From NCBI RefSeq assembly GCF_008757455.1, contig NZ_VCMV01000004.1, positions 62,001-126,000 on the forward strand: a stretch of 64,000 nucleotides of DNA, in the 5' to 3' direction. Positions 9,537 to 27,401 of this stretch are shown one piece after another. The DNA comes from Microvirga brassicacearum (lineage in GTDB: Bacteria > Pseudomonadota > Alphaproteobacteria > Rhizobiales > Beijerinckiaceae). The position numbers and the translations under genes are program-made. Each line of letters begins with the position of its first letter. Position 1 is the first letter of the stretch. The notes below the pieces were generated by a model. The model had not been told where the DNA came from. It made no database searches and saw only the letters and a program-made list of their open reading frames with translations.

Positions 9537-10529
9537 ATGCTGATCGAGGCCTTTTCCGAGGCGAAGGATCCGTCCACGCCTCAATCGAACGAGGACCGTC
9601 TCGTGATCCTGCCGGGTCGCGCTTACGCAGTGATCGACGGCGTTACGGACCGCGGCGGAAGCCGATATGGCGGGGTCTCGTCGGGTCAGTATGCGGCCAT
9701 GATCGTCCAGGGCGCGCTCGAGCATATGCTGAGCGCGCCCGACCATCCCGCAGACGGATTTGTCATCGTCAGACGACTGACGGCGGAAATGTCTCGCGCC
9801 TACGAGGCACACGGCACGTTCGAGAGGGCACAATCCGATCCCAACTCACGTCTCGCCGCTGCGCTCGCACTTGTGCTTGTCAAGGAGACGTCACTCGACA
9901 TTATCCTGGTCGGCGACAGCGGCGTGCGCATCAATGGCACGAAGATCCTTCGGATGGAGAAGGACCTCGATCTCATTACCTCGGCGTTGCGTCGAGAGGC
10001 ATGGCCGGTCATCGGCCAGCGGACTGGCGATCGCGCGTTACAAGAGCAAACCTCTCGCCGCATCACATGGCATGGCACCCGCCAACCTGTGGAAGATTTG
10101 GTTGGCGTGCTCGATGCGAGCGACATGGCGTTGATCGAGCAACGTGCCATTGATGCCAATCTCCGGGCACTTCCTCATATATCGCCGGGCGATATTCACA
10201 ATCTGGTCACCGGCGGCATCGTGAATGCGCAGAGCGGCTACCAAAATGACGCCTCCACGCTTCTCGGCTATCCATGCCTTGACGGCTTCCCAGTACCGGA
10301 GAGCCTGATCCGCATTGAAAGCATCCCGCGCGGTGACGTTCGGACCATCGAGATTTTCTCGGACGGATACTTCAAACCCGGCGACAGCTTCGGGGCCGAG
10401 GCGTGGGAGAAGGCCTTTGCCGAAGTGGAGCGCGACGATCCGTCCAAAGTCGTGCTGTATCCTTCGCCGAAAGGATCGATTGGCTCGTTCTGGGCCGACG
10501 ACAGAACGTATCTGGGCGTCAGGTTCTAA
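9537..10529 (+). CDS. PP2C-like (PPM family) protein phosphatase domain protein
   Basis: A 330-residue soluble protein with the spaced acidic motifs of metal-dependent PPM phosphatases: SNEDR (Glu19-Asp20), AVIDGVTDRGG (Asp34-Gly35, in place of the usual DGHGG), ILVGDSGVRI in mid-protein, and WADDRTYLGVRF at the extreme C-terminus (equivalent to the DDxT motif). No signal peptide or membrane segment is present. It begins 20 nt after the binding-protein stop and is likely co-transcribed with it. The family dephosphorylates Ser/Thr proteins, but here the target could also be a small molecule brought in by the transporter. Function of the pair is not known to me. Confidence 0.7.
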   Translation: MLIEAFSEAKDPSTPQSNEDRLVILPGRAYAVIDGVTDRGGSRYGGVSSGQYAAMIVQGALEHMLSAPDHPADGFVIVRRLTAEMSRAYEAHGTFERAQSDPNSRLAAALALVLVKETSLDIILVGDSGVRINGTKILRMEKDLDLITSALRREAWPVIGQRTGDRALQEQTSRRITWHGTRQPVEDLVGVLDASDMALIEQRAIDANLRALPHISPGDIHNLVTGGIVNAQSGYQNDASTLLGYPCLDGFPVPESLIRIESIPRGDVRTIEIFSDGYFKPGDSFGAEAWEKAFAEVERDDPSKVVLYPSPKGSIGSFWADDRTYLGVRF

Positions 10530-10615
10530 CCGAGACGGCGCATGCGAGCAGGCGGAGCGGTCGCCAGTGACTCAGGTATGTCAACGCTGAACACGACCGG
10601 CGCCAATCCGGGCGA

Positions 10616-11392
10616 TCAGATTTCGGCGCCGCAGAACTCGCGAGCCATAGTGGTGGAGCCTGCGGAGAGGCCACCATCGACGGGAAGGACGGCTCCGGTG
10701 ATCATCCGGGCATCCGGACCGACCAGAAAGGCCGCCACTCCGGCGATGTCCTCGGGCACGCAGATGTCGCCCAACGGGTACCATTTCTTAAGGCGTTCGA
10801 AGATCTCGGGATTGGCTTCGACCCGCGCCTTCCAGGCCTGCGTCTTGACGCTTCCGGGCGCGATGGCGTTGGCGCGGATGCCATGCCGACCCAACTCGAC
10901 GGCGAGAAAACGGGTGAGATGCTCCAGACCTGCCTTGGCGGCGCTATAAGCCGGGTAGCCGTAAATTCCCGAACCATTGGCGGATGAAATGTTCACGATG
11001 ACTCCCTCGCGGCGCTCGATCATGCTCTCTTGAACCGCCCGGGTGCAACGCCACGCGCCGTTGAGATTGAGATCCACATCGGCAAGCCAGGCGGCCTCGT
11101 CTGTGGAAGCAAGCGTGGGACTGACGACCGCTCCGGCATTGTTGACCAGAACATCGATAGGGCCGAAGCGTGCCTGCACTTCGGCAATGGCCATCTGAAC
11201 TGACGATAGGTCAGTCACGTCCGCCACGGCACTCACCAGGGCCTCGCCTGACCTGAGCTCCTCGGTCGCTTTTTGCAGCGCCGCCTCGTCGCGATCGAGC
11301 ATGACGACACGGTTGCGGTCGGCCAGAAACCGGGCGCAGAGTGCACGGCCGATGTCACCAGCCGCGCCGGTCACCAAAATGGTCTTTGACAT
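10616..11392 (-). CDS. Short-chain dehydrogenase/reductase
   Basis: A 258-residue classical SDR oxidoreductase. The cofactor motif TGAAGDIG is at residues 8-15 and NNAG at ~84-87. The catalytic set is Ser136/137 (NISS) with Tyr149 and Lys153 (YSAAK). The C-terminal PVDGGLSAG is the usual end of an FabG-like fold. Asp32 or Asp34 after the second strand suggests NAD(H) preference. The ATG at 11392 has a GGGGATCGGG ribosome binding site; the longer frame from 11446 adds an unconserved tail. It is divergent from a SnoaL-like gene. Substrate is unknown. Confidence 0.85.
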   Translation of the reverse strand: MSKTILVTGAAGDIGRALCARFLADRNRVVMLDRDEAALQKATEELRSGEALVSAVADVTDLSSVQMAIAEVQARFGPIDVLVNNAGAVVSPTLASTDEAAWLADVDLNLNGAWRCTRAVQESMIERREGVIVNISSANGSGIYGYPAYSAAKAGLEHLTRFLAVELGRHGIRANAIAPGSVKTQAWKARVEANPEIFERLKKWYPLGDICVPEDIAGVAAFLVGPDARMITGAVLPVDGGLSAGSTTMAREFCGAEI

Positions 11393-12089: not shown

Positions 12090-12283
12090 TTCCGGTGCAC
12101 GAAATCACATCGGCAATATTGTTGCTGTTTTTTGCCAAACTCTGAAACAATCCGATGAACTCCAATCGTCGAGCTTTCTGGGTTCGATCGGTTGCCGGTG
12201 GTTGTGCTCTGCCCAATATAAGAGGCTTCCCAGGAAGGCGGCAGCGTAGACCTCGTTCCCGTCAAGACCGATAATTGAGTACG

Positions 12284-12787
12284 ATGGCGAGCCTGCAGAT
12301 CCTTCTGTTCGATGTACGCGGAACCCGTTGCGCCATCCGGCAAGGTGCCATCCGGGAAATCTTGCCGCTTCCGCGCCTGTGGCGGCCACCCTCACTGCCG
12401 CGTCCTCTCGCCGGCTTCTTCAACCTTGGTGGAAGTCCCATCGCGGTGGTCCGCCTGGATATCCTGTTCGGTTTGGACGAAAGCAAACCTACGGAAGACG
12501 ACCTTTACTCGCACATGATGCTGGTGCAGCGGTCAGGGACCGAGCGGATGATGGCATTTCTCGTCGATCGGGTTGTTGACCTGACGCATGTGGATGACCG
12601 CCACCTTTCCCCGGTAGGCGAGGCCGGGGCTCACAATGGCTGCGTCGAGGCCGAAATTGATGTGGCGGGACAGCTTGTCCACCTCCTGTCTCTCGAAAAG
12701 ATTCTTTTTGCCGAAGAACGACAGACGATCGCAGCTCTCGAGCGACAGGCGCAGGTGCGGTTGAGCGAGTGGGCGGTCGCGACTTGA
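12284..12787 (+). CDS. CheW-type coupling protein (first of two)
   Basis: A 167-residue CheW-domain protein that would link the chemoreceptor at 14827 to the CheA at 16533. Recognisable pieces are ILLFDVRGTRCAIRQGAIRE at the N-terminus, GFFNLGGSPIAVVRLDILFG (the CheW core) and MMAFLVDRVVDLTHVDDRHL. It opens the chemosensory operon. The ATG at 12284 was chosen; an in-frame TTG lies at 12275. Its stop overlaps the CheR start by one base (TGATG), indicating translational coupling. In layout it corresponds to WspB. Confidence 0.85.
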   Translation: MASLQILLFDVRGTRCAIRQGAIREILPLPRLWRPPSLPRPLAGFFNLGGSPIAVVRLDILFGLDESKPTEDDLYSHMMLVQRSGTERMMAFLVDRVVDLTHVDDRHLSPVGEAGAHNGCVEAEIDVAGQLVHLLSLEKILFAEERQTIAALERQAQVRLSEWAVAT

Positions 12788-14223
12788 TGGCAGCCGAACT
12801 CGCCCCAGGCTTTGCGTTCGACCGGGCTTTTCCGAAGCTCAAGAGTCTCATTGTCGAGCGGACAGGCCATTTCTATTATGCCGACAAGGACGATCTACTC
12901 TGGGAGCGGATCGGAAAGCGGATCCGCGCGACAGGCAACCAGGATTGTTCCGCCTACCTTGAAAGATTAGACGACCCCTCCCTCGGCCCCGCGGAGTGGG
13001 CGCGTCTGGAAGCCGAGATCACGATCGGCGAGACGTTTTTCTTCCGCTATGTGGAGCAGTTCGCGGCGCTGCGCGATGTCATCCTGCCGGAACTGATCGA
13101 GCGCAAAGCAACTGAGAAACGCTTGCGGATTTGGAGCGCGGGCTGCTCGACGGGTGCTGAACCCTATTCGGTCGCAATTCTCGTGACCGAGCTTCTCGGG
13201 GAGGAGCTCAAGGACTGGCGCGTCAGCATTGTCGGCACCGACATCAACGAGAACTTTCTCGACGTCGCCCGCCGCGCACGCTTCGGGCGATGGGCTTTGC
13301 GGTCGCTGACACTTGAGCAGAAGGCGGATTACTTCCTCCCCGCAACTGAATACGACCAATGGCAGCTTCGGCCCGAATTCCGCTCGCTTGTCCGGTTCGA
13401 GCGCCACAATCTTCTGAGCCTGCTCGACCGGACATCTCCCCTTCAGTTCACCGAGTTCGACCTGATCCTCTGCCGGAATGTGCTGATCTATTTCCATCCC
13501 GATATCGTCAACCGCATTGTCGAGGCCTTGCGCGACACGCTCGTGGAGGCTGGATGGATGCTTCTCGGCCATGCTGAACCGAACCCCGGCTTCGCAACGA
13601 TGATGCAGGCACTCAACCTACCGGGTACCACGGCCTACCGGCGTTTACCGGGCAGCCCCATATGGCAACCGGAAGGCGATGTGAAGCCGGCATGGGCAGA
13701 CGTCTTAGCTCCTGTCCGGCCGCCGTCAGCGATCAAGCCGCAAAAGCCCACACCACCAAGATCGCGGCAGCCGGTACCCATCCCGCCTCCGCCGGCGACC
13801 GGCGGCGGCACGGAAACGCTCGTGACCGAGGTCCGGCGGCTCGCCGACGCGGGAGAGCTGGCAAGGGCCGATGCCGCGTGCAAGCTTGGCTTGCGCGAGC
13901 GCGCGGTCGATCCGGTCCTCCATTATTATCTCGGCCTCGTCGCACAAGCGATGAAACGTCCTTCGGAGGCCGAGAAGGCCTTCCGCGACAGCATCTATCT
14001 CGATAAGAACTTTGTCATGGCGCATTACCATCTTGGCCTGCACCTGATCGCCAACGGGCAATCTCGACGCGGACAGCGTTCGATCGCAAACGCCGCGCGT
14101 ATCGCCGCCACCTTGCCGCCGGATTGTCCTCTCGCCGAGGCGGACGGGCTCACCGGCAAAGAATTCAGGTCGCTCACGCGGGCCCACCTGCCAGCCGGCC
14201 CGCGCAACCGTGGCAAGCCCTGA
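12787..14223 (+). CDS. CheR-type receptor methyltransferase with C-terminal TPR domain
   Basis: A 478-residue protein. The N-terminal ~275 residues are a CheR methyltransferase, with GETFFFRYVEQFAALRD, the SAM site IWSAGCSTGAEPYSVAI at ~115-131, GTDINENFLDVARRARF and LILCRNVLIYFHP at ~226-238. It would methylate glutamates of the adjacent receptor. A Pro-rich linker at ~300-340 leads to tetratricopeptide-like repeats at ~345-445 (YYLGLVAQAMKRPSEAEKAF, MAHYHLGLHLIANGQSRRGQ). CheR-TPR fusions mark FrzF/WspC-type systems with alternative functions rather than flagellar chemotaxis. It overlaps the upstream CheW by 1 nt and is followed 2 nt later by the second CheW. Confidence 0.92.
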   Translation: MAAELAPGFAFDRAFPKLKSLIVERTGHFYYADKDDLLWERIGKRIRATGNQDCSAYLERLDDPSLGPAEWARLEAEITIGETFFFRYVEQFAALRDVILPELIERKATEKRLRIWSAGCSTGAEPYSVAILVTELLGEELKDWRVSIVGTDINENFLDVARRARFGRWALRSLTLEQKADYFLPATEYDQWQLRPEFRSLVRFERHNLLSLLDRTSPLQFTEFDLILCRNVLIYFHPDIVNRIVEALRDTLVEAGWMLLGHAEPNPGFATMMQALNLPGTTAYRRLPGSPIWQPEGDVKPAWADVLAPVRPPSAIKPQKPTPPRSRQPVPIPPPPATGGGTETLVTEVRRLADAGELARADAACKLGLRERAVDPVLHYYLGLVAQAMKRPSEAEKAFRDSIYLDKNFVMAHYHLGLHLIANGQSRRGQRSIANAARIAATLPPDCPLAEADGLTGKEFRSLTRAHLPAGPRNRGKP

Positions 14224-14225
14224 CG

Positions 14226-14825
14226 ATGGCGAAGTCTCTGAGGCGCAAATTACGAGAAATCACTCTGGAGGGCGCTTACTCGGTCGAGGAAAACGCCCGT
14301 TTGATCCTGGAGGAGCGGACGCGGCATCTGGCGGCAAGACGTCTGGTCAACGCAGCGCCCGAGGTCGCAGCGAGGCCGGTTCTCGTCTGTAGCACCGGCG
14401 GGGAGAGATACGGAATTGCGCTCGACGAAATCGCCGAAGTGCTACCGGTGCAAACCTGTGTTCCCGTCCCCGAAGGTCCGCCCGCCCTCGTGGGTTTTTT
14501 CGGCCGCAGAGGCCATCTCGTAAGCGTGATCGATCTTGGCGCCGCCCTCGGAACGTCCACTGCGTCGTCCGACGCCGTCTTCCACCATCTGGTCCTCCTT
14601 CGACGGGAACACCTCCGCGTCGCTTTGCGCGTAGAGCGCGCCCACAGCGTGACGCCCGCAATACCGTTGGCGGCAGAAGACGGCCAGACTTTTCGCAGCG
14701 AAGCCGTCATCGGCTACGCAGAAGCAGAATCCGGGGCTTCGGACAGAGGGCGCGTTCTGTCGCTCCTGGACGTCGAGCGCCTGATCCGCCCGTTCCTGCC
14801 CCCGTCCCCCGTTTCCGGAGTTTAA
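14226..14825 (+). CDS. CheW-domain coupling protein (second, WspD-like)
   Basis: A 199-residue protein in which a basic, helical N-terminal ~55 residues precede a CheW domain (VLVCSTGGERYGIALDEIAE, PALVGFFGRRGHLVSVIDLG, LRVALRVERAHSVTP). Having two CheW proteins either side of a CheR-TPR is the Wsp arrangement, where this position is WspD. The start at 14226 was preferred over an in-frame start at 14124 that lies inside cheR. The stop is separated from the receptor GTG by a single base, so the genes are coupled. Confidence 0.85.
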   Translation: MAKSLRRKLREITLEGAYSVEENARLILEERTRHLAARRLVNAAPEVAARPVLVCSTGGERYGIALDEIAEVLPVQTCVPVPEGPPALVGFFGRRGHLVSVIDLGAALGTSTASSDAVFHHLVLLRREHLRVALRVERAHSVTPAIPLAAEDGQTFRSEAVIGYAEAESGASDRGRVLSLLDVERLIRPFLPPSPVSGV

Positions 14826-14826
14826 G

Positions 14827-16503
14827 GTGACAATCTCGATAGCGAATCGCATCCTCCTCGGCTTCGCGTTCATCGTTGCGTTGATGATCGGACTTGGCGC
14901 CTACACGATCAACCAGCTTGACGAGGTGACCCGGACAACTGAGACGATCGTCACACGGGACTTGGCACTGCAGCGTCAACTCGATGCGTTGGCGCGCAGC
15001 CAGAACGACATGCGCGGCGCGCGCGAGGAAGCGCTCACCCGCTCCCTCCTCCGTTCCCTCGGCCAGCAGCAGGCGTCGCCCGAGGAATTGATCGCCGATT
15101 GGGGGCGGCGGGCGGCCACAACCGAAACGGCGTTGGCGCAAGCCGTCACCACAACAAACAATTATCTGTCGGCGTCGGTGACGAGCCAACGGGCGGAGGC
15201 ATGGCGCCGGACCGCCGAGATCCTGAATGCCGCGAGTGGACAATTGCGGCAGCTCCGCGTTGCCTCCGAGCGGCAGTTCAGCGCGATCGAGGCCAACGAT
15301 CTTCCGACCATTTTGTCCACGGAAAACGCCCTGAGAGCCAGCCGCGAATCGTGGAACAAATCTCTCGAAGAGATCAACAAGGTGCTGAGCGAGGCCATCT
15401 CGATCGGGCAGCGCCGCGTCAACGACGTGTACGAGCGGAGCCGCACATCGATCATTCTCGCGCTTGCGGTGGTGGGACTTCTGAGCATCCTTATCACCTA
15501 CATGCTGCGCGCTTCCATCGCCAAGCCGCTCGACGCCTTCATGGAATTTGTGGAACGTGTTGGCCGGGGTGATCTTTCAGGCCAGGCGGCATCCGCCGGA
15601 GTAGACGAGCTGGGGCGGCTGGGTGGTACCCTCAACGGCATGGTGGACGGGCTTCGGCAATTAGCGAAACAGAGTCGCGAGGCGACCGAAAACCTCAACG
15701 CCGCCGCGGCTGAAATCCGCGCTTCGACACAGGAGCAGGCAGCCAGCGTCGAAGAACAACTTGCCGCGGTCCAGGAAACTGCCGCGACCGTCGACGAAAT
15801 CACACATTCAGGGACTCAGATCGGAAAACGCGCGCAGGAGGTCATCGCATCGGCGCAAGCGACGGCGCAGACCAGCATGGCGGGTCTTCAGGCGGTGGAA
15901 GAAACGGCGCGCGCGATGGATGCCATTCGCGAACAAGGCGAAGCGGTGGCCGAGAACATTGTCGCCCTCAGCGAAAAGACCCAGGCGGTCGGGGAAATCA
16001 TCTCAACCGTCAACGATATCTCCGAGCGAACCCATCTTCTGGCGCTCAATGCAGCGATCGAAGCCGCGGCCGCCGGTGAGAATGGCCGCAGCTTTGCGGT
16101 CGTGGCTTCCGAGATGAAGGTGCTGGCCGATCAGGCGAAGGACGCAACGTCGCAGGTGCGCTCAATCCTCGGCGACATCCAGCGCGGTATCAATTCCTCC
16201 GTCATGTTGACCGAGGAAGCGGTCAAACGCGTGACGGCCGGCAAGGAGCGCACGGATACGACCCAGGCAACCATCACCGAAATCTCGAGCCGCGTTCAGG
16301 AAAGCGTGCAGACCTTCCAGCAGATTGTTGCATCCACCAATCAGCAGCAACTTGGCATCGAGCAGGTGACGGGTGCGCTTCAGAACATCCGGCAGGCAAG
16401 CCAGCAGACGGCGGCGGGAACACGCCAGCTTGAAACGGCGGCCGCCAATCTGTCGGGCCTGTCGCAGCAACTCCTCAGCCTCGTCGAGCGCTATCGCTTG
16501 TGA
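14827..16503 (+). CDS. Methyl-accepting chemoreceptor with four-helix-bundle sensor and HAMP
   Basis: A 558-residue inner-membrane receptor starting at GTG. TM1 lies at ~8-28 and TM2 at ~208-227. The ~180 periplasmic residues between them are almost all helical with no PAS or Cache signature, so a four-helix-bundle sensor is likely. HAMP covers ~229-281. The cytoplasmic coiled-coil hairpin has its tip at ~398-425 (ERTHLLALNAAIEAAAAGEN), the CheA/CheW contact site. No C-terminal NWETF-type tether for CheR is present, matching a CheR that carries its own TPR domain. It is the only receptor in the operon, so it probably sets the input; ligand unknown. Confidence 0.92.
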   Translation: MTISIANRILLGFAFIVALMIGLGAYTINQLDEVTRTTETIVTRDLALQRQLDALARSQNDMRGAREEALTRSLLRSLGQQQASPEELIADWGRRAATTETALAQAVTTTNNYLSASVTSQRAEAWRRTAEILNAASGQLRQLRVASERQFSAIEANDLPTILSTENALRASRESWNKSLEEINKVLSEAISIGQRRVNDVYERSRTSIILALAVVGLLSILITYMLRASIAKPLDAFMEFVERVGRGDLSGQAASAGVDELGRLGGTLNGMVDGLRQLAKQSREATENLNAAAAEIRASTQEQAASVEEQLAAVQETAATVDEITHSGTQIGKRAQEVIASAQATAQTSMAGLQAVEETARAMDAIREQGEAVAENIVALSEKTQAVGEIISTVNDISERTHLLALNAAIEAAAAGENGRSFAVVASEMKVLADQAKDATSQVRSILGDIQRGINSSVMLTEEAVKRVTAGKERTDTTQATITEISSRVQESVQTFQQIVASTNQQQLGIEQVTGALQNIRQASQQTAAGTRQLETAAANLSGLSQQLLSLVERYRL

Positions 16504-16532
16504 GCTGAGACGCGTTGGGAGCGCCGTTCATC

Positions 16533-18791
16533 GTGAAGGACATCCGCAAACAATTGCTCGCAGCGTTCGATGTTGAACATCGGGAGCACTTGCACGCAAT
16601 TCGCGGCGCGCTTGATGCTGCGGAAACGGGTGACGTTGATCTGACAGACGTGTTTCGCCGGGCGCATTCGCTCAAAGGTGCAGCACGCGCGGTCGAACTC
16701 CCCGCTGTCGAGGAGATCGCCCATCAGTTGGAGGCGCTGTTCTCTCAACTGATCGACGACAAGCGGGACCTCGACCCGCGCACCATTGCGGCCGTCCGCC
16801 TGAGCCTCGACGCTATCGAGGATCTGACGGCCGAAATCGACGCCCCGTCGGGCTCAGCGTCGTCGGGACCCGCACTTCAGGCACTCAATGACTTGCTCGG
16901 GCAGCCGACGCCGCCCACATCGATTGCTCCATTGGAGAAACAAGGATCGCCGCCCCCGCCGAGACCGGAGCCTCCCGGCATGCCCGAACAAGGCGTCGGG
17001 TCCTACCTGCGCGTGGCGGCCGACCAGATGGAGCAATTGTCGAGTTCCATGCACCAGTTGCTGGCGGAAATTCAGGCGGACGATGCGATCTCCGAGGATC
17101 TGCAGCAGGTCGAACTCGACGTCCGTGGATTGCGACGAAGCTGGGACCTGCTGCAGCCGCAGATGAAAATTATGGGCGCGGGCTCGCAATTCGCGGATTC
17201 AGGATCGCGAAGCACCGGTGCTTTCACGTCTCGCCTCCGCGCGTTCGATCAGGATCTCAGAGGCCTGTTTCGTACACTTTCGACCCTCGCGCGGACCCGG
17301 AAAAAGTCTGCCTGGACGGTGGAACAGGCCGCCCGACGCGTCCGCGACGATATCGACCGGGTCTCCCTCGTCTCTGCCGAAACGGTATTCGGAAACTTCG
17401 GACCGATGGTCCGGGACATCGCCCGCGAGGAAGAACGTGATGTCCATGTCCGCACCATCGGCCTCGACATTCAGGTCGATCGGCAGGTCCTCCAGGCTCT
17501 GAAGGACCCGGTTATGCACCTGCTGCGGAATGCGGTCAGCCACGGCCTCGAGCCGATTGCCGAGCGGGCTGCGAAGGGAAAACCCGAACGCGGCGAGATC
17601 ACGCTGGAGCTCGCCTCCCGCGGCGGACGACTTGCGGTGTCCGTCCGCGACGATGGTCGCGGACCCGACCTGTTGCGCATCGAGAATGTGGCTGTCGAAC
17701 GCGGCTTATTGCCCAAACGTCCGGCTGGCGGACGCATGCCCAGGATGGACCAGCTTCTGTCCCTGGTTTTCACGCCCGGCTTTTCCACCGCCGCCGCGGT
17801 GGACCGCCTGTCCGGACGGGGCATGGGTCTCTCGGTCGTTGCCGAAGCCGCGCGCAAGCTGCATGGCTCCGTTCTGCTGCGGCCACGCTTTCCCTGGGGT
17901 ACCGAGGCGCTGCTGAGCGTGCCGTTCGCAGCCGCCCGGCAGCCTCTGCTGCTCGCGGAGGCGGAGGGGCGGACCTTTGGGTTTCCCACTTACGGCATCG
18001 AACGCCTCCTTCGCCTGAGATCCGAATCACTGGAGAGCGTGGAGGGACGTCCTGCCGCACGGATCGAGATCGGGGGCCGCGACGTTGTTGTTCCGGTAGT
18101 CGCTCTGGCCGCTCTCACAGGATCGCCGAATGCGCAAATTCCCATCGAGAATAAGAATATTAAAGCCGTGCTGGTCAGTCATGGCGCCCGTTACTGCGCG
18201 TTTGCGGTGAACGCCTTCGATGATGTGCGGACGATGCTGGTCAGCGATATCGATGTTGTCGGGGTCAGCGAGATTGCGTCAGGAACCGTGATGCTCGAGG
18301 GTGAGCTTCCCGCGCTCGTGCTCAGCCCAGAGCGACTGGTCGAGCATTGGATCCGTCACGAGAGCTACCTCGCGGCGAGCGGGCTTGGGCTTGCCGAATG
18401 GTCCGACGACGCGCAGAAGCACACGACGACGATCTTGGTCGTGGACGATTCAATCACCACACGAACGCTCGAAAAAAGCATTCTGGAAGCCCAAGGCTAC
18501 CGCGTCCTGCTGAGCGTTGACGGAATCGATGCACTCAATGTCCTCCGCGCCGGAGAGACGATCGTCGATGTTGTGATTGCGGATGTGGAAATGCCGCGAA
18601 TGGACGGATTTGGACTTCTCCAGGCTGTCAAAGCCGACGCGCGCTTGGCCACGACCCCCGTGATCCTGATGACGTCGCGCGCTGCTCCCGGCGATATTCG
18701 CCGCGGGCTGGATCTCGGTGCGAGCGCTTACATCACCAAGCAAAACTTCGACCAGCGCGAATTGCTGGCGACGATCGGGCAACTCCTATGA
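16533..18791 (+). CDS. CheA histidine kinase with C-terminal receiver (WspE/FrzE-like)
   Basis: A hybrid CheA of about 752 residues. Hpt domain first, with the phosphorylated His in FRRAHSLKGAARAVELPAVE (~residue 45). A Pro-rich linker follows, then a dimerisation segment, then the HATPase with N-box HLLRNAVSHGLEPIAER, G1 VRDDGRGPD and G2 LSGRGMGLSVV. A CheW-like regulatory domain comes next, and finally a receiver with DDS and phospho-acceptor Asp ~684 in IADVEMPRMDGFG. GTG at 16533 has a GGGAG upstream; TTG at 16515 in the same frame is the alternative. It overlaps cheB by 4 nt. The attached receiver could act as a phosphate sink or relay to the later proteins of the operon. Confidence 0.92.
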   Translation: MKDIRKQLLAAFDVEHREHLHAIRGALDAAETGDVDLTDVFRRAHSLKGAARAVELPAVEEIAHQLEALFSQLIDDKRDLDPRTIAAVRLSLDAIEDLTAEIDAPSGSASSGPALQALNDLLGQPTPPTSIAPLEKQGSPPPPRPEPPGMPEQGVGSYLRVAADQMEQLSSSMHQLLAEIQADDAISEDLQQVELDVRGLRRSWDLLQPQMKIMGAGSQFADSGSRSTGAFTSRLRAFDQDLRGLFRTLSTLARTRKKSAWTVEQAARRVRDDIDRVSLVSAETVFGNFGPMVRDIAREEERDVHVRTIGLDIQVDRQVLQALKDPVMHLLRNAVSHGLEPIAERAAKGKPERGEITLELASRGGRLAVSVRDDGRGPDLLRIENVAVERGLLPKRPAGGRMPRMDQLLSLVFTPGFSTAAAVDRLSGRGMGLSVVAEAARKLHGSVLLRPRFPWGTEALLSVPFAAARQPLLLAEAEGRTFGFPTYGIERLLRLRSESLESVEGRPAARIEIGGRDVVVPVVALAALTGSPNAQIPIENKNIKAVLVSHGARYCAFAVNAFDDVRTMLVSDIDVVGVSEIASGTVMLEGELPALVLSPERLVEHWIRHESYLAASGLGLAEWSDDAQKHTTTILVVDDSITTRTLEKSILEAQGYRVLLSVDGIDALNVLRAGETIVDVVIADVEMPRMDGFGLLQAVKADARLATTPVILMTSRAAPGDIRRGLDLGASAYITKQNFDQRELLATIGQLL

Positions 18792-19864
18792 AAGCCGCGC
18801 TGCACTCCCCTGTGCGCGTGATGATCGTGGAGGATTCGCTCGTCATCCGCCAGCTCCTCGCGCATATCATCACCCGCGACCCTCGTCTAATCTTGGCCGC
18901 CGCCGTCAGCTCTGCCGAGGAGGCCTTGCGGGAAATCCCCCGTATCCAGCCCGATGTCATCTCGATGGATATTCGCCTTCCGGGCATGGACGGCCTTGAA
19001 GCCACACGCCGGATTATGTCGGAGCACCCGACGCCGATTGTCGTGATTGCGGGCAGCATCGAAGATGCTGCTTTGAAAATCTCCATGAACGCGCTCCGCG
19101 CCGGCGCGCTTACGGTCGTCGAGAAGCCGGTCGGCGTGACGAACGCCGGGTACGATGGTATCGCCGATACGATCTGCACCCAGCTTTACATCATGAGCCA
19201 GGTGCCGGTTGTCAGACAGCGCTCATTCGCCTGGCGTCCACCGGCTCAACGCACGACGTCGGCTTGGCACGATGATTCGACCGGATCGCAAGCCCCGAGC
19301 CTCCTCGGCATCGCCGCCTCGACCGGTGGTCCACCCGCGCTTGCGAAGGTACTGAGCGGCTTGCCGGCCGATTTTCCCATCCCGATCCTGCTCGTGCAGC
19401 ATATCGGCGCGCCCTTCATGGAGGGCTTTGCATCGTGGCTGGACGGGATCATGCCGCTCAATGTCGGCGTCGCGCGCGATCAGGAAACGCCTGTCGCCGG
19501 ACGGGTTTATGTCGCCCCGGGAGATCGCCACCTTCTGTTGTCGCCATCAGGCACGCTGCGGATCAGCGCGACTGCTCCGCTCGCCGGTCAGAGACCGTCG
19601 GCGACGCTGCTGTTTCGATCGATGGCTGATGCGCTCGGGTCCAAGGGACTTGGCGTCATCCTGACCGGCATGGGAGAGGACGGCGCCCCGGGGCTGGTGG
19701 AGATGCGTCAGGCCGGCGCCTACACCATCGCCGAGGACGAGAGTACGGCAGTTGTCTATGGCATGCCCGCAGCTGCACTCCGCATGGGCGGCGTGCGTGC
19801 CAGTCTGCCGCTCGATCTGATCGCCCCGCGCATTGCCCGGCTCGTGAAGGATGCTCGCCAATGA
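18788..19864 (+). CDS. CheB protein-glutamate methylesterase response regulator
   Basis: A 358-residue protein. The N-terminal receiver has phospho-acceptor Asp61 (SMDIRLPGMDGL) and Lys113 in VEKP. The C-terminal methylesterase has the catalytic triad Ser178 (AASTGGPPAL), His205 (LVQHI) and Asp298 (GMGEDGAPGL). It would remove methyl groups added by the CheR-TPR to reset the receptor. ATGA overlaps at both ends (with cheA and with the next kinase) show tight translational coupling. In Wsp systems this is WspF. All catalytic positions are intact. Confidence 0.94.
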   Translation: MKAALHSPVRVMIVEDSLVIRQLLAHIITRDPRLILAAAVSSAEEALREIPRIQPDVISMDIRLPGMDGLEATRRIMSEHPTPIVVIAGSIEDAALKISMNALRAGALTVVEKPVGVTNAGYDGIADTICTQLYIMSQVPVVRQRSFAWRPPAQRTTSAWHDDSTGSQAPSLLGIAASTGGPPALAKVLSGLPADFPIPILLVQHIGAPFMEGFASWLDGIMPLNVGVARDQETPVAGRVYVAPGDRHLLLSPSGTLRISATAPLAGQRPSATLLFRSMADALGSKGLGVILTGMGEDGAPGLVEMRQAGAYTIAEDESTAVVYGMPAAALRMGGVRASLPLDLIAPRIARLVKDARQ

Positions 19865-21606
19865 GCGCAGGAACCGGCACGCAAGGTGCACGCATTCTTC
19901 TGGTCGAGGATTCCGAGACGCAGGCGTTGCAGCTTCGCCATGTGCTGGAAAGCAACGGACTTCATGTCACCTGGCGCTCGACTGCCGAAGCGGCGCTCGA
20001 CAGCCTGAACGAGAAGCTTCCGGATCTCGTCATCGCGGATTTTCATTTGCCCGGCATGAACGGGGACGAGTTGTCGCGGCAGATGCGGCTGAACGTCCGC
20101 ACACGCGCGATCCCCGTGATCATGCTCACGGAGGCCCGTGAGCGTGGAGTCGAACGGCAGGGGCTCGAAAGCGGCGCCGACGCATATGTGTCCAAATCCG
20201 CCGAGCAGGCCCTCATCATTCTGCGAATCCGGGCGCTGTTGCGACGACGCGCGGCGCCCGCGGCGACAGTCGAGGAACACCGGAATGCACCGAGTTTCAG
20301 TGCTTTCCGGCGAGCCCGTCTCCTTGTCGTTGACAGCGATAACGCGCAGAGAACCTATCTTGAGGAGATTCTGGCGCGGGAAGGGTATTCGGTGACATGC
20401 GTCGCAAGCCCCGACGAGGCGCTGGACCTCGTCAGCGTACAGGGAGCGAATCTGGACTGCGTCCTGGTGAACATTCTGAGTCCCGCCTCCGACGGCGTGG
20501 AGCTTTGTCGCCGGCTCAACGTCTATCGCGGCGTCGCCCCCGTGCCCGGCACCGAGGTTGCCACCTATTACATCGTGGGACTCGGCAACGAAGACAGCGG
20601 TGATATTCTGGCTCGCGCCTTCGCAGCCGGGGCCGACGATATCGTGCCGGCTGCCGCAGATGCTGATGTGATGCGCGTCCGCATCCGTGCGCTCGTGCGC
20701 CGAAAGCTTCTGCAGGACGAGAACTGGCGCATCGAGACTGAACTTCAGGAGCGGGATCTGGCATTGGAACGCGCTCGCACCGAAGCCGCCGCGGCCGAAG
20801 CCCGTGCTGCTCTCGCCGGTGCGCTCGAGAAAGCCAACCATGAGCTCGAAGAAAGCAATCAGCGCCTGAAGGACACGCAGGCGAAACTCGTTCAGGCGGC
20901 CAAGATGGCATCTCTCGGCGAACTGGTCGCGGGCATCGCACACGAGATCAATAATCCGCTTGCTTTCATTCTTGCGCATCAGGGCACGGTTGAGCGGCTT
21001 CTGGCCGACGTGGCCAAGAAGCTGCCCGGAAGCGCCGCTATCGAGAAGCCTGTCGCTAAATCCAGGGAGCGTGTTGCGGCGATGAAGCTCGGCCTCGGTC
21101 GGATTCAGGAACTTGTCCTGAACCTTAGGCGGTTTTCTCGTTTGGACGAGGGCGACTTCCAGACGGTGAATGTGCGCGAATCGATTGACACGGTGCTGGC
21201 GCTGCTCGGCCACCGGCTCGGTGCGCGCATCGATGTGCGGCGACGTTTCGACGCCGTACCGGACCTATATTGTTCGCCGGCGCTTCTGAATCAGGTGGTG
21301 ATGAATATTATCGGCAATGCGGCTGACGCGATTTCCGGCTCCGGTGCCATCGACATTGAAACCTGGAGCGACGACACAACCTATACGATCAGAATCAGCG
21401 ATACGGGGCCTGGCATCCCGCCGGATCTGCGTGAAAGGATTTTCGAACCGTTTTTCACCACGAAACCGGTCGGCGCCGGAACTGGACTCGGACTGGCCAT
21501 AGCCTATAGCGTTGTCCAAGCTCACAAGGGAACAATCACGGTGGATTCGGGCCCGTCAGGTGGCACAAGCTTCACCATTACAATCCCGAGGCAAACCCAC
21601 CAATGA
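19861..21606 (+). CDS. Hybrid histidine kinase: receiver, degenerate receiver, coiled coil, HisKA-HATPase
   Basis: A 581-residue soluble protein. Receiver 1 (~10-120) is intact: Glu16-Asp17, phospho-acceptor Asp60 ([11 protein letters not shown]), Thr90 and Lys112. Receiver 2 (~152-270) has lost key residues: the acceptor is Asn204 ([12 protein letters not shown]), the acidic pair is broken (VVDSD) and the Lys is Ala264. A coiled coil at ~283-350 leads to HisKA with His361 ([12 protein letters not shown]), then an HATPase with [18 protein letters not shown] and GTGLGLAIA. It overlaps genes on both sides by 4 nt. CheA is the probable donor to receiver 1, which would then tune the kinase module; this is inference. 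There is no DNA-binding or GGDEF output. Confidence 0.88.
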
Positions 21607-23516
21607 CCTCGATGATTCCGGAAAACCAGAGACAGGGCACGATCCTCGTCGTCGATGACGAACCGGATATCTTGATTGCCATCAAGGACCTCTTCGAGGA
21701 CGAGTATCGCGTCGTTTCGACAACCTCGCCGCTGGAGGCTCTCGATATTCTCGCGAGCGAGCCGGACATTGCCGTGATCCTCTCGGATCAGCGGATGCCT
21801 GAGATGTCGGGAGACGAGTTTCTGGCCCAGGCGCGCGAACACAGCGACGCTGAAGCCATTCTCCTGACCGGCTACGCCGATCTCAAGGCGGTCATCGGAG
21901 CGGTCAACAAGGGCCGCATCATGGCCTATATGCCCAAGCCATGGGATCCGTCGCTGCTGGCCGTCATGGTGCGGTCTGCCTATGAGCGTCGTGTCCTGGC
22001 GCGCGAGTTCGATATGGAGCGCGCTCTGCTGCGCGGCTTGATGGAAAGCACGACGGACCAGATCTCTTTTAAGGATCTCGACGGGCGATTTATGCGGCTG
22101 AATGCCAGCAAGGCCAAAAGTTTCGATGTCTCACCCACATTGTGCCTTGGCCGCCGAGAAAGTGAATTCGTCACCCCCGAGCGCGCTGCGTCGATTCTCG
22201 AGGCAGAACGAGCGGCCATTGCGGCTCGCGCACCGGCCGAACGGCTCGAAGAACGCACCACGGCCGACGGCGCGACCCAATGGTATCTCGTTCATCGCAT
22301 TCCCATTCTGGACGAGACCGGCACTGTGGCGACGATCGCCACCATCGAGCGCGACGTCACCGAACGCAAGTTGATGGAATTGCGTCTGCGCCAAGCAGAC
22401 AAGATGCAGGCTCTCGGGACTCTTGCGGGCGGCATCGCGCATGATTTCAACAATCTGCTGATGGCGGTGCTCGGCAGTCTCGACCTCGCCTCTCGCCGCG
22501 CGCCTGACGATCCGCGCCTCAATCGGCTTCTTCAGAACGCCACCTATGCGGCCGAGCGCGGCGCATCGCTCACTCAACGGCTCCTGAGCTTCAGCCGGCA
22601 GCGCGACTTGAGCTTGCGCGCCGTCGACGTGAACGAAGTCATCCATGACATGAACGATCTTTTGATGCGTACGCTCGGAGGCGTCGTGCGCATCGAGAAA
22701 AATCTGTCGCATGCTTTGTGGCCGGCCATGGTTGACCCCGATCAACTCGAACTCGCTATCCTGAATCTTTGCATCAACGCCCGGGACGCCATGGCTGAAG
22801 GCGGACAGATCCTCCTGTCGACCCGCAACGCGAGCGTTGCCGAGGGCGAAATCGCGGATCTCCCTGGCGGCGATTACGTCGTGATCGCGGTGAGAGACGA
22901 AGGCGCAGGCATCCCGCCCGACATTCTCAGCCGTGTGATCGAACCTTTCTTTACCACCAAGGAGGTCGGCAAGGGCACCGGACTGGGACTGCCGATGGTC
23001 TACGGTCTGGCACAACAATCCGGCGGAACGGTCACGATCGAGAGCAACGTGGGCAGGGGTACGGTCGTGGAATTGTACCTTGCACGCACGATGACGAACG
23101 ACGCCGCCGCAGAACGCGAGGAACGGGCTGTCTCGCCGAGCGCCCCCAAGATTCGCATTCTCCTCGTCGACGACGATGCCGAAGTACGAGCCGTCACATC
23201 CGCGTATCTCGTTGAAATGGGCCACCGCGTGATCGAGGCGCCTGATGGGGCCTCGGCGATTGATATCCTGCGTACGGATCGGCAAATCGACCTGTTGGTG
23301 GCGGACTTCGCGATGCCCGGGATGACCGGGTTCGACCTCGCGGTCAAAGCGCGGGAGCACCGGGAGGGGATCGGCATCCTGCTCGTCACCGGATATGCGG
23401 ATCCCGGCAAGATGGCGCAGGGCTTCCCGCTCCTGCACAAACCCTTCGGACGGGAGGATCTTGCCGCAAAGGTTAATGAGGTGGCGGTGACGGGGCTTTC
23501 TTCGCCGGAGGCTTAG
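21603..23516 (+). CDS. Hybrid histidine kinase: receiver, PAS, HisKA-HATPase, receiver
   Basis: A 637-residue soluble protein ending the chemosensory operon. Receiver 1 (~12-125) has acceptor Asp62 (LSDQRMPEMSG) and Lys112 (MPKPW). A PAS/PAC sensor lies at ~140-255 (DQISFKDLDGRFMRLNASKA, IATIERDVTERK). HisKA has His280 (GGIAHDFNN), the subclass of hybrid kinases that dephosphorylate as well as phosphorylate. The HATPase has ILNLCINARDAM and DEGAGIPPD, and the C-terminal receiver (~515-630) has Asp568 (VADFAMPGMTG). Start and upstream stop overlap by 4 nt. The only output modules are phosphotransfer domains, so the signal must leave the operon through a partner encoded elsewhere. Confidence 0.9.
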   Translation: MTSMIPENQRQGTILVVDDEPDILIAIKDLFEDEYRVVSTTSPLEALDILASEPDIAVILSDQRMPEMSGDEFLAQAREHSDAEAILLTGYADLKAVIGAVNKGRIMAYMPKPWDPSLLAVMVRSAYERRVLAREFDMERALLRGLMESTTDQISFKDLDGRFMRLNASKAKSFDVSPTLCLGRRESEFVTPERAASILEAERAAIAARAPAERLEERTTADGATQWYLVHRIPILDETGTVATIATIERDVTERKLMELRLRQADKMQALGTLAGGIAHDFNNLLMAVLGSLDLASRRAPDDPRLNRLLQNATYAAERGASLTQRLLSFSRQRDLSLRAVDVNEVIHDMNDLLMRTLGGVVRIEKNLSHALWPAMVDPDQLELAILNLCINARDAMAEGGQILLSTRNASVAEGEIADLPGGDYVVIAVRDEGAGIPPDILSRVIEPFFTTKEVGKGTGLGLPMVYGLAQQSGGTVTIESNVGRGTVVELYLARTMTNDAAAEREERAVSPSAPKIRILLVDDDAEVRAVTSAYLVEMGHRVIEAPDGASAIDILRTDRQIDLLVADFAMPGMTGFDLAVKAREHREGIGILLVTGYADPGKMAQGFPLLHKPFGREDLAAKVNEVAVTGLSSPEA

Positions 23517-23718: not shown

Positions 23719-23766
23719 GTCCCCCATGGGGACAGATTGACAAGAACGAACCTTCGCACCTTAACT
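23719..23766 (+). promoter_or_regulatory. Candidate sigma70 promoter with adjoining palindrome upstream of dppA
   Basis: TTGACA at 23737-23742 is followed after 18 nt by TTAACT at 23761-23766, a reasonable -35/-10 pair. A perfect inverted repeat, GTCCCC-CAT-GGGGAC at 23719-23733, abuts the -35 box on its upstream side, a position suited to a regulator site. The rest of the 298-nt gap between the chemosensory operon and dppA holds only a weak CCTTGG/CCAAGG hairpin at 23575-23594, with no T-run, and no convincing gene. Confidence 0.4.
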
Positions 23767-23814
23767 CTGTCGCAGAACGGCCATAATCCAGAGCCGTCTC
23801 AGAGGACTGTCAGA

Positions 23815-25416
23815 ATGAAGAAATCAGCTCTTCTTGCTGCTGTTTGCGTCCCGGCCTTTTTGGCCGCGGCACCGCTCGCAGCCAAAACCCTTGTCTATTG
23901 CTCAGAGGGCAGCCCGGAGAACTTCTACCCCGGCGTCAACACCACCGGCACCTCATTTGATGCCAGCGAACAGATCTACAACCGCATCGTCGAGTTCGAG
24001 CGCGGCGGTACCAAGGTCGTCCCGAGCCTCGCCGAGCGCTGGGAGGTGTCGCCCGACGGCACCGTCTACACCTTCTATCTTCGCAAGAACGCCAAGTGGC
24101 ATTCGAACAAGAACTTCACACCCACGCGCGCGGCGAATGCCGATGACGTGATGTTCATGGTCGAGCGGCAGTGGAAGGAAGACAACCCGTACTTCAAGGT
24201 CACGAGCCCCAACCACTCGTATTTCAGCGACATGGGCATGCCCAAGCTGCTGAAATCGGTCGAGAAAGTGGATGACTACACGGTCCGTTTCACGCTCAAC
24301 CAGCCGGAAGCACCGTTCCTCGCCAACCTGGCGATGATGTTTGCCAGCGTGCAGTCCAAGGAATACGCCGACGCGATGCTGAAGGCCGGCACGCCTGAGA
24401 AGATCGACCAGGAGCCGATCGGAACAGGTCCCTTCTCGCTCGTGCAATATCAGAAAGACGCCATCATCCGCTACAAGGCGTTCCCTGATTACTGGGGCGG
24501 CAAGGCCAAGATCGACGATCTCGTCTTCTCGATCACGCCCGACGCATCGGTTCGCTGGGCGAAGCTCCAGAAGGGCGAATGCCATGTGATGCCGTATCCG
24601 AACCCGGCCGATCTCGAAGCCATGAAGAAGGACACGAACGTCCAGATTCTGGAGCAGCCCGGCCTGAATATCGGCTATCTTGCCTATCAGACCACGAAGA
24701 AGCCCTTCGACGACGTCCGCGTCCGCAAGGCCTTCAACATGGCGATGAACAAGAAGGCGATCGTCGACGCCGTGTTCCTCGGCAGCGGCATCCCCGCCAA
24801 GAACCCGATCCCGCCGTCGATGTGGTCCTATAACGACGCCGTGAAGGAAGATGCGTACAACCCGGAAGCCGCCAAGAAACTGCTTGCGGAAGCGGGCTAT
24901 CCCAATGGTCTTGAAACCGACCTTTGGGCGATGCCGGTTCAGCGTCCCTACAACCCGAATGCCCGCCGTATCGCCGAACTGATGCAGGCCGACCTCGCCA
25001 AGATCGGCGTGAAGGCCGAGATCAAGAGCTTCGAGTGGGGCGAGTATCGCAAGCGCGCTCAGGCGGGCGAGCATCAGATGGCTCAGCTCGGCTGGACGGG
25101 TGACAACGGTGATCCGGACAACTTCCTGCACACCCTGCTCGGCTGCGCCTCGGCTCAGTCGGCGTCGGGCTCGAACATTGCGAAGTTCTGCTACAAGCCG
25201 TTCGACGATCTGGTTCTGAAAGCCAAGGTCACGACCGACATTGCGGAGCGCACGAAGCTCTATGAGCAGGCTCAGGTGATCTTCAAGGAACAGGCTCCGT
25301 GGTTCACCGTGGCTCACGCGGTGCAGCTCAAGCCGGTTCGCAAGGAAGTCGTCGACTTCAAGCTTTCTCCTTTTGGTCGCCACACCTTTTACGGCGTGGA
25401 TATCAAGGGTAAGTAA
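23815..25416 (+). CDS. dppA: Dipeptide ABC importer periplasmic binding protein DppA
   Basis: A 533-residue secreted protein. The signal peptide is MKKSALLAAVCVPAFLAAAP through AAA. The mature start KTLVYCSEGSPENFYPG and long stretches such as FSITPDASVRWAKLQKGEC, DLWAMPVQRPYNPNARR and GWTGDNGDPDNF closely match E. coli DppA from memory, including the two Cys pairs. It binds di- and tripeptides, and possibly haem or aminolevulinate as in enterics, for the DppBCDF transporter downstream. An in-frame start at 23737 adds 26 residues with no signal character, so the ATG at 23815 with GAGG upstream was used. A strong hairpin follows before dppB. Confidence 0.95.
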   Translation: MKKSALLAAVCVPAFLAAAPLAAKTLVYCSEGSPENFYPGVNTTGTSFDASEQIYNRIVEFERGGTKVVPSLAERWEVSPDGTVYTFYLRKNAKWHSNKNFTPTRAANADDVMFMVERQWKEDNPYFKVTSPNHSYFSDMGMPKLLKSVEKVDDYTVRFTLNQPEAPFLANLAMMFASVQSKEYADAMLKAGTPEKIDQEPIGTGPFSLVQYQKDAIIRYKAFPDYWGGKAKIDDLVFSITPDASVRWAKLQKGECHVMPYPNPADLEAMKKDTNVQILEQPGLNIGYLAYQTTKKPFDDVRVRKAFNMAMNKKAIVDAVFLGSGIPAKNPIPPSMWSYNDAVKEDAYNPEAAKKLLAEAGYPNGLETDLWAMPVQRPYNPNARRIAELMQADLAKIGVKAEIKSFEWGEYRKRAQAGEHQMAQLGWTGDNGDPDNFLHTLLGCASAQSASGSNIAKFCYKPFDDLVLKAKVTTDIAERTKLYEQAQVIFKEQAPWFTVAHAVQLKPVRKEVVDFKLSPFGRHTFYGVDIKGK

Positions 25417-25435
25417 GCCTTCGTTCGCAACCTTC

Positions 25436-25472
25436 GGCGGAGCGGCTGATTCCACGCCGCTCCGCCTTTTTT
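25436..25472 (+). terminator. Intrinsic terminator/attenuator between dppA and dppB
   Basis: An 11-bp perfect GC-rich stem (GGCGGAGCGGC with GCCGCTCCGCC) and 9-nt loop is followed at once by six T residues. It lies 20 nt after the dppA stop and 10 nt before the dppB ATG. Because dppBCDF has no room for a separate promoter here, partial termination would give much more DppA than membrane components. Confidence 0.8.
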
Positions 25473-25482
25473 AGTTCAAAAG

Positions 25483-26493
25483 ATGCTCCGATTCATCCTG
25501 ACACGCGTCAGCCTCGTCATCCCGACATTCCTCGGGATCACAATGCTGGCCTTTTTCCTCATCCGACTGGTTCCGGGCGACCCCATCGAGACCCTGGCCG
25601 GCGAGCGCGGGATCGACCCCCAGCGCCTGGAGCAGCTGCGCATCGAGTTCGGTTTCGACAAGCCGATCATCGTCCAGTACGGCATCTATCTGGCCCGTGT
25701 GCTGCAAGGCGATCTCGGCAAGTCGATGATCACGCAAGAATCGGTCCTGACGGAATTCACGGCGCTGTTTCCCGCCACCATCGAGCTCGCTTTCTGCGCC
25801 ATCATCTTCGCCCTCGCCCTCGGGCTGCCGGCCGGAATGCTGGCGGCGATCAAGCGAAACTCGATCTTCGATCACGGCGTGATGGGCGTTTCCCTCGCGG
25901 GCTATTCGATGCCGATCTTCTGGTGGGGCCTGATCCTCATTTTGCTCTTCTCGGTGCAGTTTGACCTCACTCCGGTATCCGGCCGCATCGACGTCCTCTA
26001 CTATATCGAGCCGACAACCGGCTTCCTGCTGATCGACACGCTATTGTCCGACGAGGAAGGCGCGTTCTGGTCGGCCGTCCGCCACCTGATCTTGCCGACC
26101 ATCGTGCTTGGCACCGTACCGCTCGCGGTCATTGCCAGGATGACACGGTCCGCCATGCTCGAGGTGCTGGGGGAGGACTACATCCGCACCGCGAAGGCAA
26201 AGGGATTGTCGCAGTTCCGGATCATCGCCCTTCACGCACTTCGCAACGCGCTCATCCCGGTCGTCACCGTCATCGGCTTGCAGGTCGGCGTATTGTTCAC
26301 CGGCGCAATCCTGACCGAGACGATCTTCTCGTGGCCAGGCGTGGGCAAATGGCTTATCGACGCCATCTTCCGGCGCGATTATCCCGTCTTGCAGGGAGGA
26401 GCGCTTCTTCTCGGCGTCGTCGTGATGGCTGTGAACCTCCTCGTCGATCTCACTTACGGCCTCATCAATCCGCGCATCAGGCATAACCGATGA
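25483..26493 (+). CDS. dppB: Dipeptide ABC importer permease DppB
   Basis: A 336-residue inner-membrane permease with about six hydrophobic helices. The N-terminus [20 protein letters not shown] and the segment [17 protein letters not shown] are typical of DppB/OppB, and [20 protein letters not shown] is the EAA loop that docks to the ATPases. It pairs with DppC (overlap 4 nt) to form the translocation channel. Confidence 0.93.
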
Positions 26494-27401
26494 CCGCAGA
26501 AACTCTCGACACTCCGGCCGTTGCGGTTCCAACGGCCACGCCGCCGCATCCGCTTCGCGAATTCTGGGGTTATTTCAGCGCCAACCATGGCGCCGTCGCC
26601 GGCCTGATGGTCATTGTCGGGGTGGTGCTGGTGGCGATTTTTGCCGACGTCATTGCGCCGCATTCGCCGTATCTCACGGATACGACCGTCGCCCTGAAAC
26701 CGCCATTCTGGCAGACGGGCGGAACCCTCACCTATCCGCTCGGAACCGACCCGATCGGGCGCGATATTCTCTCGCGCCTCATCTACGGCTCGCGCCTCTC
26801 GCTGATGATCGGCATCGCCGTGGTGTCGATCTCGATCATTATCGGCACTGTCCTTGGACTCGTGGCGGGCTTCGTTCGTGGGATCGTCGAAATCTTCATC
26901 ATGCGGCTGATGGATATCATCCTGACCTTGCCGAGCCTTTTGCTCGCCATCGTCATCGTGGCCGTCCTTGGTCCCGGATTGATGAATTCGATGCTCGCCG
27001 TCGCGCTCGTCATCCTGCCGCATTATGTGCGCCTGGCACGCGCCGCGGTGATCACCGAGACCTCGAAGGATTATGTGACAGCTGCCCGTGTGAGCGGCGC
27101 TGGTCCGATCCGCCTGATGTTCAAGGAGGTGCTGCCCAACTGCACCGCTCCATTGATCGTCCAGGCCTCGCTCGGCATTTCAACCGCGATCCTCGACGCT
27201 GCCGCCCTAGGCTTCCTCGGCCTCGGCGCGCAGCCGCCATCGCCCGAATGGGGCACCATGCTGGCAGATGCGCGCGAGTTCGTGCTGCGGGCCTGGTGGG
27301 TGGTGACCTTCCCCGGTCTCGCCATTCTCATAACGGTGCTGGCCTTCAACCTCCTGGGCGACGGTTTGCGCGACGCCCTCGATCCCAAATTGAAGCGCTG
27401 A
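26490..27401 (+). CDS. dppC: Dipeptide ABC importer permease DppC
   Basis: A 303-residue permease with an N-terminal OppC_N helix region, the periplasmic segment [20 protein letters not shown] that is nearly invariant in DppC/OppC, and the EAA loop [20 protein letters not shown]. It has about six membrane helices. The start overlaps dppB by 4 nt and the stop is 2 nt before dppD, so the four transporter genes are coupled. Confidence 0.93.

Follow-up and report, generated by a model that had tools for sequence, protein, structure and literature searches.

A 64,000-nucleotide stretch of the 5.2 Mb genome of Microvirga brassicacearum (contig NZ_VCMV01000004.1, positions 62,001 to 126,000; hereafter the window) carries, at positions 12284–23516 (+), an eight-gene chemosensory operon that ends in two histidine kinases, here termed S1 and S2. 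This operon is probably a chemosensory system for alternative cellular function (ACF) of the CheA3 clade, in which CheA signals to REC1, the first of two receiver (REC) domains of S1, and S2 serves as the partner of S1. S1-REC1 is homologous to a receiver that CheA is proven to target, namely REC1 of CheS3, a kinase of Rhodospirillum centenum: the two are 50% identical over 118 positions, and the other 27 receiver pairs of the matrix share 25–39%. An earlier note on this DNA, made from the sequence alone, had proposed that CheA passes phosphate to kinases with N-terminal receivers; likeness to a proven target makes such signalling most likely, with S1-REC1 as the addressee.

All eight genes are open and co-oriented, and Pfam recovered the domains first read for them, in the order CheW, CheR, CheW, methyl-accepting receptor, CheA-REC, CheB, S1 (REC-REC-kinase), and S2 (REC-PAS-kinase-REC). 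Junction distances in gene order are −1, +2, +1, +11, −4, −4, and −4 nucleotides (nt); six of the seven junctions, rather than the five first counted, overlap or lie at most 2 nt apart (range −4 to +2 nt), and those of cheA/cheB, cheB/S1, and S1/S2 are each four-base overlaps. Neither a CheY nor a GGDEF gene was found by Pfam among the operon genes, in agreement with the earlier remark that a CheY or WspR-type gene is missing.

The complete order recurred in 33 of the 38 loci whose S1 match reached at least 400 bits (window excluded from the count), in genera including Microvirga, Methylobacterium, Alsobacter, Chthonobacter, and Pseudoroseomonas. Because all eight genes keep their order in these loci, the arrangement is not due to chance, and both kinases belong to the operon as conserved members, as had been supposed. 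The remaining loci were either incomplete (L022 ends at a contig edge, L097 at the edge of the fetched stretch, and CheW 2 was undetected in L088) or had the kinase pair upstream of the che genes (L090 and L140). The set was drawn from a genome-collection scan, plasmid records, and related genomes, with short loci excluded; found mostly via S1 searches, it measures S1–che linkage rather than operon frequency, and it includes near-duplicates (L099 is a repeat of L031, and tree distance shows L098 and L068 to be almost identical). Full-length S1 (E ≤ 2.3e-185) was present in 38 of 101 related genomes, 35 of them from the genus of the window (35/48, own genome included). By a route independent of S1, CheA matched at 1e-60 in 10 of 385 genomes across the class: S1–S2 stands behind CheA in four (G000, G055, G139, and G432), the pair lies upstream in G453, and the other five have different neighbours. 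One operon copy resides on a 195-kb plasmid of Pseudoroseomonas cervicalis (L067), where the cheB matches (9929–10962) come in two pieces without a coding sequence in the table, so that this gene may be broken or unannotated.

Kinase control by a chemosensory kinase has a precedent in the Che3 system of R. centenum, where CheA3 phosphorylates REC1 of CheS3 and thereby unblocks cyst formation (He et al. 2013, PMC3868531). According to that report, transfer to CheS3-REC1 was seen only from CheA3 lacking the receiver Asp, the receiver being explained as a sink; the CheA3–CheS3 order is also backed by epistasis, and the discussion treats Che3 as an ACF system (PMC3868531). The earlier idea of a kinase of kinases was thus sound, but not its status as undescribed. 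The R. centenum locus (G555) carries the published residues CheA3 H49 and D663 and CheS3 D54, A191, and H453. Its order of CheW, CheR, CheW, receptor, CheA, CheB, and CheS3 equals the core order of the window, and the two systems share a CheA with a terminal REC and, after cheB, a REC-REC kinase in which the REC1 Asp is present and the REC2 Asp absent. They differ in the kinase, which is HWE_HK by Pfam in CheS3 (HWE_HK matches came from L085, L132, L137, and L138) and HisKA, with no PAS match, in S1; the PAS domain reported for CheS3 (PMC3868531) fell below the Pfam cut-off here. Moreover, Che3 includes a CheY3 (PMC3868531), whereas the window operon has no linked CheY but adds S2; in the CheS3-type relative L137, a 125-amino-acid (aa) receiver protein stands first in the cluster. 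The window arrangement is a sister variant of the CheS3 system and not an ortholog of CheS3, because it has neither the HWE kinase nor a linked CheY3.

CheA (16515–18791, +; TTG start at 16515 uncertain) comprises Hpt, HATPase, CheW, and C-terminal REC domains by Pfam. In a tree of 48 CheA rows, built by a quick method with SH-aLRT (Shimodaira–Hasegawa-like approximate likelihood ratio test) support only, it shares a 31-row clade with R. centenum CheA3 (support 100). Wsp-type rows fall in a separate 14-row group (support 90); the three rows called Wsp-type all have a REC-GGDEF protein downstream, and the tree took in no Frz row and no bona fide Pseudomonas Wsp row. The Wsp-type clusters of Azoarcus (L087) and Mesorhizobium pMLb (L159) resemble the window in their receptor, two CheW, CheR, CheA-REC, and CheB, but they begin with the receptor, end in a receiver-GGDEF gene, and have their CheA in the other group. 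We therefore rejected the Wsp-type placement of the earlier note, since the window CheA lies outside that group and S1 and S2, not a receiver-GGDEF gene, follow cheB.

Behind cheB, the clade of the window CheA holds four forms, each confined to one side of a branch: a REC-REC-HWE kinase (5 rows, four by Pfam and L135 by BLAST), a stand-alone REC-REC protein with a separate hybrid kinase (6 rows, of which L084 was classed by Pfam and the others by annotation or BLAST), a single REC-REC-HisKA-REC-Hpt protein (2 rows), and S1 plus S2 (18 rows). The second form is that of Azospirillum-type clusters (L083, L084, and L086 on plasmid records; L134, L141, and L142 from the same family), whose core order is the same where annotated (L083, L084). 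Unlike S1, their REC-REC protein stands alone (255 or 266 aa in five; the L141 frame is longer) and is followed by the hybrid kinase (HisKA-REC in L084 by Pfam). A Niveispirillum REC-REC-HisKA-REC-Hpt protein (L069, 11995–14886) lies away from che genes, whereas L139 has a relative of it next to cheB. Another kind of output, a REC-SpoIIE phosphatase protein (L092, 10388–11959; G266), was seen near a distant CheA-REC gene.

S1 (19861–21606, +) consists of REC1 (Asp60), REC2 (Asn204), a long helix, and HisKA-HATPase, as read from Pfam, residue alignment, and an AlphaFold2 (AF2) model. The Asp, Thr, and Lys of REC1 are intact in 37/37 rows (near-duplicates included), and the REC2 acceptor is lost in 31 of them (Asn in 28, Gly in 2, Ser in 1). 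CheS3-type rows likewise have the REC1 Asp (5/5) and Ala in REC2 (5/5); REC-REC-kinase-REC-Hpt proteins have Asp in both receivers (4/4). We also measured receiver identity to the window in eight loci of other genera, which was 69–74% for S1-REC1, 35–49% for S1-REC2, 61–65% for S2-REC1, 41–52% for S2-REC2, 68–85% for CheA-REC, and 70–88% for CheB-REC (L067, with its divided gene, excluded from the last). This pattern fits docking of S1-REC1 on CheA but is suggestive only, and S2-REC1 is no more conserved than the S2 kinase, which limits the weight of receiver conservation. The AF2 model of S1 (18 sequences) shows two receivers followed by a single helix (268–387) that runs from REC2 into the kinase, and its top Foldseek matches, over about 300 aligned columns, were LvrB (REC-kinase) and PleD. 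PleD has a REC plus second-REC tandem as in S1, with a GGDEF output unlike that of S1. With an N-terminal REC joined to DHp-CA by a long helix, the predicted structure fits REC-controlled histidine kinases. In LvrB of Leptospira, a helix that extends the last receiver helix is reported to couple REC phosphorylation to kinase activity (PMC13269768). LvrB and S1 thus appear alike in REC control and in the helix entering the kinase, but LvrB has a single REC and no chemosensory array upstream. Because of the long modelled helix and the likeness to LvrB and PleD, the model suggests that REC1 is the switch and REC2 the adaptor.

S2 (21603–23516, +) comprises REC1, PAS_4, a CckA-like HisKA-HATPase, and a C-terminal REC by Pfam and NCBIfam. 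The acceptor His and the REC1 Asp are present in 37/37 rows and the REC2 Asp in 36/37 (L088 is without the domain). At 1e-100, S2 has matches in 19 of 385 alphaproteobacterial genomes, only five of which cover the N-terminal REC; in four of these five the match lies next to che genes, and in the fifth (G345) next to a stressosome.

In the mechanism that we propose, the four-helix-bundle receptor, tuned by CheR and CheB, would control CheA, whose phosphate would have three destinations: CheB, S1-REC1, and the C-terminal REC of CheA itself, which is probably a sink. S1-REC2, without an acceptor Asp, may act as a PleD-like adaptor whose last helix would run straight into the kinase, and phosphorylation of REC1 would switch the kinase/phosphatase balance of S1. 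In place of CheY3, S2 would be the working partner of S1: it would integrate a PAS signal, respond to control by S1 or CheA at its N-terminal REC, and pass on or drain phosphate through its C-terminal receiver. The output would then leave via unlinked proteins; the most plausible candidates are a phosphotransferase of the ChpT type and a cyclic di-GMP (c-di-GMP) enzyme with a receiver.

Several observations weigh against this reading. The adjacency of S1 and S2 is by itself no proof of phosphotransfer, and since the S1 kinase is HisKA, not HWE, and has no PAS, the sign of control may differ from that in CheS3. The AF2 models of S1 (predicted local distance difference test (pLDDT) 77, predicted template modelling score (pTM) 0.47) and of the whole receptor (pLDDT 61, pTM 0.37) are modest, and the CheA tree has no bootstraps and includes long branches (L088 and L160). 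An active REC1 with REC2 as adaptor is not universal, because S1-REC2 keeps its Asp in 6/37 rows and the Azospirillum-type REC-REC proteins are reversed (REC1 Glu in 5/6, REC2 Asp in 6/6). Similarly, two CheS-type proteins in a Niveispirillum genome (G274) sit away from che genes: the first shares a replicon with cheA at a distance of about 100 kb, and the second is on another contig. For this reason, kinases and che genes are strongly associated in the S1/S2 clade, but the wider family has exceptions.

It is possible, although we lean away from it, that CheA acts on S2-REC1, as on the receiver of WspR, and that S1 works in parallel on an input of its own, which would give two separate outputs. 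The catalytic residues of S2-REC1 are all kept in 37/37 rows, and in L140 (G544:C1:1931000-1950000) a REC-PAS-GAF-GGDEF-EAL protein follows cheB with a REC-PAS part 41% identical to that of S2, indicating that such a module can follow CheB alone. However, the homologue of the proven CheA3 target is S1-REC1, which is also the more conserved of the two receivers in the other-genus loci. Doubtful, in our view, is a role for S2 like that of CckA, namely to drive the CtrA pathway through ChpT. The kinase-REC half of S2 matches the NCBIfam CckA model at 390 bits and is 40–47% identical to two other kinases of its own genome; one ChpT-type protein there exceeds the cut-off (a second match is below it), and only one of four PF01627 Hpt matches lies outside the three CheAs, in another frame. 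Yet 390 bits is far under the equivalog cut-off of 1000, S2 does better on the non-CckA model NF010076 (416 bits), and the resemblance in the receiver helix was judged by eye.

That the operon is an ordinary accessory of flagellar chemotaxis, its kinases feeding an unlinked flagellar CheY, is very unlikely. Its own genome does have flagellar genes, with FlhA, FliG, and CheZ on contig C9, but that contig bears a separate two-CheA cluster, and these CheAs branch far from the window CheA. Furthermore, full-length S1 occurs in three of five same-genus genomes without detected FliG or FlhA (G002, G010, and G018, all multi-contig assemblies of 99–100% estimated completeness), and che neighbours of S1 were seen in G010 (L056) and G018 (L062). 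Because S1 persists in these genomes, a flagellar output is unlikely, in line with the suggestion of the earlier note that the operon could set a program other than motility. The chemotaxis cluster on C9 (L101, G000:C9:46000-65000) encodes two similar CheAs (908 and 913 aa, two PF01584 places each) and CheZ. Returning to the proposed output of the S1–S2 system, c-di-GMP control is a fair guess by analogy, because related clusters elsewhere hold REC-EAL (L089 and L171) or, as noted, REC-PAS-GAF-GGDEF-EAL proteins; a search of the own genome yielded no single match spanning both halves of the L089 REC-EAL protein. Elsewhere in that genome (L185, G000:C17:201500-210000), a REC-PAS-GGDEF-EAL protein lies beside an 866-aa open reading frame (ORF) at the only non-CheA Hpt match. 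We considered the two as a linked c-di-GMP output and rejected them, as nothing ties them to the operon.

Relatives of the kinase pair also occur outside the main clade. S1 matches at 1e-45 covering the kinase alone were found in only two genomes, a small number, and both have an S2-like partner. In G345 (L170, G345:C224:1-9000), an S2 homologue (43%) accompanies protoglobin-STAS, STAS, HATPase_c_2, and SpoIIE phosphatase proteins and an RsbU_N-HisKA kinase that is 54% identical to the kinase part of S1. Both this locus and the window thus contain an S1-type kinase and an S2 homologue, but the input of L170 is an RsbR/S/T/X-like set with no chemosensory array. G476 holds an S1-type kinase (45%) that has a REC of its own; after it come a multi-PAS hybrid kinase, whose kinase-REC part is S2-like (41%), and a REC-EAL protein. 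In L090 and L140, the pair accompanies a second CheA clade, and the S2-like kinase there shares only 32% identity and differs in its His motif. Globin-type stressosomes are described with eleven downstream types, some with RsbU_N (PMC9237108), so that RsbU_N signalling proteins in themselves are known; stressosome loci with two-component outputs are also reported (PMC9237108, PMC10014275). In the portions of the stressosome literature compared, no link of RsbU_N signalling to a chemosensory kinase pair was found. The earlier expectation that the kinases stay with the che genes held for the full-length pair, which was not found apart from them among the loci inspected; it failed for the S1-type kinase domain and S2 homologue behind the stressosome and for the CheS-type proteins of G274. 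Tentatively, S1 and S2 might form a portable two-kinase output cassette that is placed behind unrelated arrays by exchange of the S1 N-terminal adaptor. A REC-REC adaptor might then serve behind the arrays of two CheA clades and RsbU_N behind the stressosome, an idea we hold loosely. It is likewise conceivable, though not favoured, that one kinase of the pair is set by the array and in turn sets the other; this would make a kinase-of-kinase-of-kinase chain to which no transcription factor is linked.

CheA signalling to another kinase has been in print since 2013. A literature search at the level of titles and abstract beginnings found no published description of the S1/S2 arrangement, and we likewise found nothing in print on the spread of this variant, on kinase exchange behind a recurring REC-REC adaptor, or on the stressosome relative. 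The CheA-to-kinase wiring proven in a cyst-former belongs to a CheA clade with a recurring REC-REC adaptor and an exchanged kinase. Judging from the stressosome relative, one and the same pair of kinases may serve two different kinds of sensory array in bacteria. The conserved pairs CheA/S1-REC1 and S1/S2 could be used to study phosphotransfer specificity. If the proposed reading is true, one could guess the output logic of other CheY-less chemosensory operons simply by looking at their adaptor.

The remaining operon genes encode the other chemosensory components. CheW 1 (12284–12787, +; 72.6 bits in Pfam) starts at an ATG (12284) common to aligned relatives, with an alternative in-frame TTG upstream at 12275. 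The next gene (12787–14223, +) encodes a CheR methyltransferase (CheR 154 bits, CheR_N 32 bits) with a C-terminal TPR-like region; the CheR part of the earlier CheR-TPR assignment stood, while its TPR part was sub-threshold (TPR_2, 19.9 bits against a cut-off of 27). CheW 2 (14226–14825, +; 63 bits) starts at ATG 14226, although its query in some scans began at 14220. The methyl-accepting receptor (14827–16503, +) has a periplasmic four-helix sensor followed by HAMP and MCPsignal domains (Pfam). AF2 predicted the sensor as four helices, with pLDDT of about 80–92 at residues 41–200 and low values elsewhere. Compared with the window, 11 loci of other genera were 23–39% identical in the sensor and 75–89% in the signalling domain. 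Foldseek matches of the sensor domain, such as PcaY, had E > 0.01, and no ligand was assigned. CheB (18788–19864, +) consists of REC and methylesterase domains (Pfam) and scored 318 bits on the NCBIfam CheB subfamily model NF001965 (cut-off 293).

Upstream of the operon, a sigma70-like promoter candidate (TTGCCG, 17 nt, AATATA; 12192–12220, +) was read by eye, and TTGC followed by a TA-rich stretch occurs in 8/8 aligned upstream regions (the window and 7 of 22 scanned Microvirga loci). General-stress (EcfG) control was considered and rejected: no GGAAC/GTT pair lies upstream in the window or the 22 Microvirga loci; the pair is present in 2/7 loci of other genera (L031 and L032). A 182-aa ORF upstream of the operon had no Pfam match. 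A substrate-binding protein gene directly follows S2 in 23/23 Microvirga loci compared. It is a neighbour and not part of the operon, because it is missing after S2 in L100, of the same genus, and in seven loci of Pseudoroseomonas, Alsobacter, Chthonobacter, and Methylobacterium. In the window, positions 23737–27401 on the same strand after S2 hold a family-5 solute-binding protein gene and two putative permease genes.

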